DNA of 64,000 nt from Catenulispora sp. EB89 (lineage in GTDB: Bacteria; Actinomycetota; Actinomycetes; Streptomycetales; Catenulisporaceae), in contig NZ_JBGCCU010000004.1 of assembly GCF_041261445.1 (NCBI RefSeq), forward strand, positions 310,001 through 374,000, in the 5' to 3' direction. Both the position numbers and the translations under genes were made by a program. Shown here piece after piece: positions 5,823 through 8,233 of this stretch. The notes beneath the pieces were generated by a model. It was not told where the DNA came from. It made no database searches and saw only the letters and a list, made by a program, of their open reading frames with translations. The stretch's first letter is position 1. Every line of letters begins with the position of its first letter.

Positions 5823-6443
5823 CTACTTCATGATGTAGATGACGAAGAACAGGCCGATCCACACCACGTCGACGAAGTGCCAGTAGTAGGACACGACGAT
5901 CGCGGAGGTGGCCTGGTCATGGGTGAAGCGCTTGGCGAGATAAGTCCGGCCCAGCACCAGCAGGAACGCGAGCAGACCGCCGGTGACGTGCATACCGTGG
6001 AACCCGGTGGTGAGGTAGAACACCGACGTCCACGCGTTGTGGCCGATCGTGTAGTTCTCCTTCACCAGGGCCGAGTACTCCCAGATCTGCCCGGAGACGA
6101 AGACCGCGCCCATGATGAACGTGAGGATGAACCAGCTCCGCAGCTTCCGCACGTCCCCACGCTCGGCCGCGAACACGCCCATCTGGCAGGTCACCGAGGA
6201 CAGCACCAGGATGGTGGTGTTCGGCACGGCCAGGGACATGTTCAGGTGCTTGGCCTGCTCCACGAAGTACTGCGACCCGTGCACTGAGCGGATCGTGAAG
6301 TACATCGCGAACAGCGCCGCGAAGAACATCAGTTCCGAGCTCAGCCAGACGATCGTTCCGACGCTGACCAGGTTCGGCCGGTTGGGCAGGCGGTGGGCCT
6401 GCCCCGCTTGAGTAGTTGCAGTTGCTGTCGCCACGGCCGCCAT
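5823..6443 (-). CDS. ctaE: cytochrome c oxidase (aa3) subunit III
   Basis: Five-helix subunit III of the haem-copper oxidase (206 residues), with the family signatures [15 protein letters not shown] near the N terminus and [10 protein letters not shown] in the second half. First gene of the minus-strand operon ctaE-qcrC-qcrA-qcrB; ctaCDF lies separately at 10.6-13.7 kb, an arrangement usual in Streptomyces and relatives. The 197-bp gap upstream is shared with the divergent receiver gene and should hold the operon promoter, although I cannot place a convincing -10/-35 pair. Confidence 0.97.
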
Positions 6444-6640
6444 TATGTCGTCACCCCATGGCGGCTCCGCGCCGGGGGTGGGTGTTAAGGAACCAGTGTC
6501 CTGTGTGTATGGGGCCGAACGAGTTAACGAAGGTCCGGATCAAGCAGTTCCCGGAAGGTCGGAACGGCAGTTGATCATGGACGAGATCGGGACCCCGACC
6601 GTCTGGAAGCGGAGCGAGCACGCCGAGTAAGCTCCCCTGC

Positions 6641-7102
6641 ATGAACGCTGCTGACACTAACCAACAAGGGGTGCACGGCAACGCTGGTAGTGCCAGCGAG
6701 ACCGCCATCAAAGTCCTCATCTACAGCGACGACTCCACCACCCGCGAGAAGGTCGTGCTGGCGCTCGGGCGCCGGGTGGCGGCCGACCTGCCGCCGATCA
6801 AGACCCACGAGTTCGCGACCCCGCTCGCCGTGGTCAACGCCGTCGACAACGGCGGCTTCGACCTGCTGATCCTGGACGGCGAGGCCACCCCGGCCGGCGG
6901 CATGGGCGTGTGCCGGCAGCTCAAGGACGAGATCTACGAGTGCCCCCCGGTCCTGGTGCTCACCGGGCGCCCGCAGGACGGCTGGCTGGCCACCTGGTCC
7001 CGGGCCGAGGCGTGGACGCCGCACCCGATCGACCCGGTCGCGCTGGCAGACTCGGTCGCGGAGTTGGTCCGGGCCCGGCTCGCCAAGCGCGTCTCCGCGT
7101 AG
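6641..7102 (+). CDS. stand-alone receiver-like response regulator with altered active site
   Basis: A single CheY-like domain of 153 residues with no output domain. The beta-1 acidic pair (LIYSDD), the phosphoacceptor position (LLILDGE) and the beta-4 Thr (LVLTG) are present. The invariant beta-5 Lys before Pro is replaced by His (WTPHPID), so phosphorylation-driven switching may be altered or lost. The first 20 residues look disordered. It is divergent from ctaE and followed by a palindrome and trpD. From memory, a similar gene accompanies the respiratory cluster in Streptomyces. Its target is not evident from the sequence. Confidence 0.8.
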   Translation: MNAADTNQQGVHGNAGSASETAIKVLIYSDDSTTREKVVLALGRRVAADLPPIKTHEFATPLAVVNAVDNGGFDLLILDGEATPAGGMGVCRQLKDEIYECPPVLVLTGRPQDGWLATWSRAEAWTPHPIDPVALADSVAELVRARLAKRVSA

Positions 7103-7109
7103 GGTTCGC

Positions 7110-7140
7110 TCTATAGAGAGGCCCTGGGCTTCTCTATAGA
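7110..7140. promoter_or_regulatory. 31-bp palindrome between receiver gene and trpD
   Basis: Bases 7110-7124 and 7126-7140 are complementary around a central T, with a single G-T exception. Each outer arm contains TCTATAGA, itself palindromic and AT-rich in a very GC-rich region. It starts 8 bp after the receiver stop and ends 44 bp before the trpD start. It could be a protein-binding operator for trpD, or an RNA hairpin acting as terminator or attenuator; only a weak pyrimidine stretch follows (TTCACCC), which favours an operator. Confidence 0.7.
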
Positions 7141-7183
7141 TTCACCCAATTGAGCGTTCCGTAGAGACGGAGGCGACCCGCCG

Positions 7184-8233
7184 ATGACCGAGCAGCGCAC
7201 CTGGCCCGAGCTCCTGTCGGCGGCTCTGCGCCGCGACGACCTGTCGGTCGACGACGCCGCCTGGGCCATGGACCGCATCATGACCGGCGAGGCCACCCCG
7301 AGCCAGGTCGCGGGCCTGGCGGTGGCGCTGCGCGCCAAGGGCGAGACGGTCGACGAGATCGAGGGCTTCGTCCGCTCGATGTACACGCACGCGCTGCTCA
7401 TCGACGTCCCCGGGGCCACCGTGGACATCGTCGGCACCGGCGGCGACCGCGCGCACACGGTGAACATCTCCACGATGTCGGCCATCGTCGCGGCCGGCGC
7501 GGGCGCGACGGTGGTGAAGCACGGCAACCGGGCGGCCTCGTCCTCCTCCGGCGCCGCGGACGTCCTGGAGCGCCTCGGCGTCCGCCTGGACCTCGCACCC
7601 GAGGCGGTGGCCCAGGTCGCGAAGGAAGCGGGCATCACCTTCTGCTTCGCCCCGGTCTTCCACGCCTCCCTGCGCCACGCGGGCGTCCCCCGCAAGGAAC
7701 TGGCGATCCCGACCTTCTTCAACTTCCTCGGGCCCCTGACGAACCCCTCCCGCCCCCGGGCATCGGCCGTCGGCGTCTTCGACGAACGCATGGCCCCGAT
7801 CGTGGCCGGCGTCTTCGCCCGCCGAGGCGTCGAAGCCCTGGTCTTCCGCGGCGACGACGGCCTGGACGAGATCTCGGTGGCCACCACCACGACGATCTGG
7901 ACGGCCTCCGACGGCGAGGTGACCCGCGAGGTCTTCGACCCCCGCGACCTCGGCATCGCCTACTCCCCCATCAGCGCCCTCCGCGGCGCCGACCCGGAGT
8001 TCAACGCGGCCGTGGCCCGCCGCCTGCTGGCCGGCGAGCAGGGCGCGGTACGCGACGCGGTGCTGCTGTCGGCGGCTGCGGCCCTGGCGGCGCTGGAGCC
8101 CACGCATGAGCCGGTGACGGCACGGCTGGGCGCGGGGCTGGCGAAGGCCGCGGAGGCGATCGATTCGGGGGCCGCGGAGCGGGTGCTGGCGACGTGGGTC
8201 GAGGTTTCGGAGCGGTTGGTTCAGGAGCGGTAG
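7184..8233 (+). CDS. trpD: anthranilate phosphoribosyltransferase
   Basis: Second step of tryptophan synthesis: anthranilate plus PRPP gives phosphoribosyl-anthranilate. The PRPP/Mg loop [14 protein letters not shown] (about residues 84-97), the [18 protein letters not shown] segment that follows and the N-terminal helical domain are all present. The 349-residue length is normal. GGAGG sits 10 bases before the ATG. It stands alone, away from other trp genes, as in Streptomyces, where trpD lies next to the qcr genes. The palindrome just upstream may control it. Confidence 0.97.

Follow-up and report, generated by a model that had tools for sequence, protein, structure and literature searches.

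A U-poor stem-loop between an Rv3143-like receiver gene and trpD in Catenulispora sp. EB89, and its reading as a candidate weak terminator

A near-perfect palindrome stands in front of trpD in Catenulispora sp. EB89, and the question is whether it is an operator for trpD (or for both flanking genes) or a terminator of the gene that precedes it; the preliminary description of this DNA considered the two equally likely. Here we examined the flanking genes, the fold of the palindrome in RNA, the occurrence of similar sites in the genome and the genus, and the placement of comparable hairpins relative to genes.

The flanking genes

The palindrome lies at 7110-7140 (+) of the window (the whole stretch of DNA analysed, 64,000 nucleotides), exactly where it had been placed before, and in the only gap between a receiver-like gene and trpD, as had also been described; the gap covers 7103-7183 (81 bases), with the stop of the receiver-like gene at 7102 and the trpD ATG at 7184. 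The trpD gene (anthranilate phosphoribosyltransferase; 7184-8233, +) is the sole copy in the genome above the TIGR01245 cut-off. Its likely ribosome-binding site, assigned from the sequence, is GGAGG at 7169-7173 (+), which falls within a segment, 7156-7186, that is conserved throughout Catenulispora. No sigma-70-type promoter was found around the gap. The hexamer TAGGGT at 7100-7105 was considered as a promoter element, since it resembles the TAGGGT before Streptomyces trpD, and was rejected: it has no fitting -35 element and, by eye, is not present in all species.

The receiver-like gene (6641-7102, +), which ends just before the hairpin, encodes a protein of 153 residues. This protein matched the NCBIfam Rv3143 family with E = 8e-54, though below the family cut-off, and also chain O (annotated as a two-component response regulator) of PDB entry 8e9g, which we take to be a mycobacterial complex I structure. 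The Rv3143-type protein is known to be a partner of complex I of the respiratory chain (PMC9274095). Judged from these matches, the product is an Rv3143-like pseudo-response regulator, a homologue of the complex I partner, and not a DNA-binding regulator. The gene is divergent from ctaE (cytochrome c oxidase subunit III; 5823-6443, -), behind which the cytochrome c and Rieske genes follow; thus, it belongs with respiration and gives no reason for a link to tryptophan regulation. The regulator link that had been suggested for the nearby receiver therefore falls away, and the doubt that accompanied the suggestion proved correct.

The receiver-trpD gene order is old; it was found in Nocardioides, Janibacter, Sporichthya, Actinospica and others, and in many Nocardioides and Janibacter the two genes overlap or almost touch, which implies co-transcription. 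Co-transcription with read-through would thus likely be the ancestral state. Note that the position of the Rv3143/MSMEG_2064-type gene (6641-7102) beside ctaE-qcr and before trpD, which recurs in many actinobacteria, is an unusual pairing of respiration and tryptophan genes.

Fold of the palindrome and its strength against chance

The palindrome has the form TCTATAGAGAGGCCC-T-GGGCTTCTCTATAGA, in which arms of 15 bases (left arm, TCTATAGAGAGGCCC, 7110-7124, +; right arm, GGGCTTCTCTATAGA, 7126-7140, +) flank a single base and are complementary at 14 of the 15 arm positions. The sole departure is a G-T pair, which becomes a G-U wobble in the + strand RNA and a mismatch in the - strand RNA, so that the + strand RNA keeps 14 consecutive pairs (including the one G-U) around a three-base loop, CUG, with a predicted folding energy of -20.7 kcal/mol; the predicted fold of the - strand RNA is weaker (-16.8 kcal/mol). 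The hairpin begins 7 bases 3' of the stop codon of the receiver gene. The stem can be extended (7102-7147, +) by pairing of GGGU (7102-7105) with ACCC (7144-7147) across an internal loop, which is 4/3 here and 4/4 in C. rubra. The folding energy of 7101-7140 was -20.8 kcal/mol, and -25.9 kcal/mol with the outer GGGU/ACCC pairs, as compared with the cut of about -23 kcal/mol that is applied in S. clavuligerus to the last 40 bases of a transcript end. The gap holds no T-run or U-rich tract after the stem, with 2 T in the 8 bases that follow it, in agreement with the earlier statement; it thus lacks the tract of a canonical U-tract terminator. As a stable, U-poor stem-loop with a small loop, the structure fits the description of U-poor (I-shaped) intrinsic terminators.

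The preliminary description had called such a palindrome very unlikely by chance, and this was borne out by shuffling. Against dinucleotide shuffles, the fold of the gap had z = -3.7, and that of the 75 bases counted from the stop codon had z = -5.2, with none of 200 shuffles equally stable; the expectation for the TCTATAGA pair was 0 in shuffles of the window. In 400 kb, 37 real hairpins of equal score were found, concentrated intergenically, against 3-7 in block-shuffled sequence. A functionless palindrome with a lineage-specific origin in the C. rubra clade would account for the near-perfect form being found in only two very close species; however, the location directly behind the stop codon, the exceptional stability relative to shuffles and the genome-wide placement pattern of such hairpins (see below) speak against this reading, which we regard as highly improbable.

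The operator question

An operator would here consist of two self-palindromic TCTATAGA boxes bound by a dimeric or tetrameric protein that controls trpD or both genes. Each arm is indeed self-palindromic, as is the case in genuine binding sites, of which the same genome offers a parS-like inverted pair and a TTAGGCATGCCT pair as examples, and AT-rich boxes are conspicuous in a genome of 71% GC. However, the paired site occurs only once in the 11.9-Mb genome; thus, the genome search that had been proposed for paired arm sites gave no second site, and nothing before other aromatic-amino-acid genes. The TCTATAGA box itself was counted 15 times and its reversed control 8 times; no other box pair had the same spacing. 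The genus scan with up to 3 mismatches gave no more sites than expected from the reversed control and yielded no further site with 0-1 mismatches except the orthologous one in C. rubra (G001). Exact, 3-mismatch and variable-spacing scans of genome and genus together gave no second site at the same spacing, and an operator with a regulon was rejected on this ground. A dispersed repeat or MITE was also rejected, the palindrome being no repeat and having near copies in one relative only.

In the alignment of trpD upstream regions among congeners, the flanks align and the arms vary: they are whole in C. rubra, whose strain DSM 44948 has an almost identical site, are partly retained as CTATAG boxes in C. 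pinisilvae and C. pinistramenti (a point for an operator), and are absent in G004 (presumed C. acidiphila), G007 and G009. The spacing of the CTATAG boxes also differs between pairs, and hairpins of similar score are scarce in divergent, promoter-bearing gaps. Lack of conservation of the arms in relatives had been named beforehand as the observation that would speak against an operator, and the loss of the arms within the genus is that observation. An operator for trpD is therefore not supported, and we consider this reading improbable; the palindrome has the look of a common RNA stem-loop close behind a gene end, a type with which GC-rich soil bacteria end or trim transcripts, and not that of a switch of tryptophan synthesis.

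Several other boxes and repeats were seen in the course of these scans. About 18 clustered parS-like sites with the core GTTTCCCGTGAAAC lie at L125:1126-8708 (G000:C1 about 281-289 kb), some of them as inverted pairs just after stop codons; the canonical parS, GTTTCACGTGAAAC, occurs once in the 1.6 Mb scanned. An inverted pair of TTAGGCATGCCT boxes, which resembles an operator of the double iron-box type, lies in a co-directional gap (L101:7923-7956). The sequence CTATAGGGCTTCGGCAGTATGCGCAGAAGCCCTCTATAG and its variants (L177:2996-3034; also L184, L185 and L186) recur in 7 Catenulispora genomes; the two genes neighbouring it in L177 had no Pfam match.

Terminator-like placement and other RNA-level readings

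The placement of hairpins of equal or better score was surveyed across 800 kb of this genome (the stretches scanned total 1.6 Mb; the genes were assigned with a simple codon-usage caller, and their starts are approximate). Convergent gaps held 1.48 such hairpins per kb and co-directional gaps 0.63, as against 0.18 per kb in divergent gaps and 0.025 within genes (Fisher tests: convergent versus divergent, p = 7e-9; co-directional versus divergent, p = 0.002). This distribution, dense in convergent gaps, intermediate in co-directional gaps and rare in divergent gaps and genes, is the pattern of terminators. Such a hairpin is present in 15 of the 91 co-directional gaps of 60-130 bases, and in 19 of the 35 co-directional hairpins the 8 bases that follow contain fewer than 3 T, as at the palindrome with its 2 T. 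The palindrome hairpin (-20.7 kcal/mol) is among the weakest of these 35, and without the outer pairs it does not reach the -23 kcal/mol threshold of S. clavuligerus.

Transcript ends of the same U-lacking class are described in Streptomyces Term-seq studies, together with their leakiness (PMC8269248, PMC8780764, PMC12207403). Of the 535 transcript ends with strong structure in Streptomyces clavuligerus, 353 are without a U-tract and were likened to I-shaped terminators or Rho-dependent ends (PMC8269248); in S. avermitilis, the U-lacking ends are real but leakier (PMC8780764). In the alr-groEL1 operon of M. tuberculosis, an internal I-shaped hairpin reduces the expression of a downstream reporter (PMC5335608). 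The receiver-trpD hairpin shares with these U-lacking, highly structured ends and I-shaped terminators of Streptomyces and mycobacteria a stable stem-loop near a stop codon, the lack of a U-tract and a possible position within an operon (PMC8269248, PMC5335608), but it is weaker and has an AU-rich lower stem. An in vitro study, as cited in PMC5335608, counts against a U-poor terminator, the mycobacterial RNA polymerase requiring a U-tract there. The gaps of all other Catenulispora also fold, yet not clearly beyond shuffles (z, +0.5 to -1.9); a hairpin conserved throughout the genus was thus rejected, the fold being significant against shuffles only here and in C. rubra, and our case does not rest on it. 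Conservation of the structure across Catenulispora is accordingly weak.

The placement is terminator-like, but the hairpin is weak and the folds of the congeners are not significant, and we therefore hold with moderate confidence that the palindrome is a weak or leaky, U-poor (I-shaped-like) intrinsic terminator or 3'-end-forming hairpin within an otherwise co-transcribed receiver-trpD pair. Transcription of the receiver gene on the + strand would produce the stem-loop in the intercistronic RNA; some transcripts would end after the receiver gene, and others would read through into trpD. While the structure, its distance from the stop codon and its class placement are observed, we infer that transcripts end here and that termination is partial. 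Of the two functions raised earlier, the terminator, in a U-poor form, is thus favoured by the genome-wide placement, and the operator is not supported.

The main rival to this terminator is an RNA processing or stabilizing site, at which the receiver-trpD message would be read through and the extended stem-loop would be cut by an RNase III-type enzyme, or would block 3' exonucleases, giving the two halves different decay rates. In Streptomyces coelicolor, RNase III cleaves the rpsO-pnp intergenic hairpin at a [4/4] internal loop (PMC10126417), and the extended stem, likewise intercistronic, has a similar loop (4/3 here, 4/4 in C. rubra). However, the genes and the sequence are unrelated, the resemblance of the internal loops is loose, and the hairpin is not clearly kept beyond two species. 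A comparable CTATAG-based hairpin between the normally co-transcribed rpsD and rpoA genes argues for processing. On balance we consider a processing site unlikely, albeit less so than an operator.

The rpsD-rpoA hairpin is a perfect 14-bp stem, CTATAGGGAGTCCC-loop-GGGACTCCCTATAG (L175:3050-3082; also L181, L182 and L183), kept in 4 Catenulispora genomes with variation in the loop alone; a role in processing or attenuation within the alpha operon is possible. It shares with the receiver-trpD hairpin a perfect stem with CTATAG at its base, a position soon after a stop codon and a co-directional gene downstream; it differs in that its sequence is conserved in the genus, whereas the receiver-trpD hairpin is not. 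In 1.6 Mb, 3 CTATAG pairs were found (2 of the 3 overlap) versus 0.04 expected under independence, but the count over whole genomes is close to the reversed control with no clear excess, and a CTATAG family is therefore not established. A class of CUAUAG hairpins is an unproven idea; that CUAUAG-closed intercistronic stem-loops (receiver-trpD, rpsD-rpoA, C1:545575 and others) are a recurrent class in Catenulispora, recognized by a dedicated factor for RNA processing or termination, seems very improbable.

A tryptophan-responsive attenuator of trpD (of the leader-peptide, T-box or TRAP type) would explain a hairpin upstream of a tryptophan gene. However, T-box, TRAP and other known RNAs were rejected, as no Rfam family matched in 6400-7500 and the genome has no TRAP gene; a start codon with consecutive Trp codons is absent from the 81-base gap, and the fold offers no obvious alternative pairing. 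An attenuator is thus largely refuted and is the least probable of the readings considered.

The biology of the receiver-trpD hairpin is in itself ordinary. If the terminator reading is true, the first reading of a striking palindrome behind a stop codon in a GC-rich actinobacterium should be a U-poor terminator or a processing hairpin, not an operator, and a respiratory gene and trpD, which were ancestrally coupled, may be partly uncoupled in Catenulispora.
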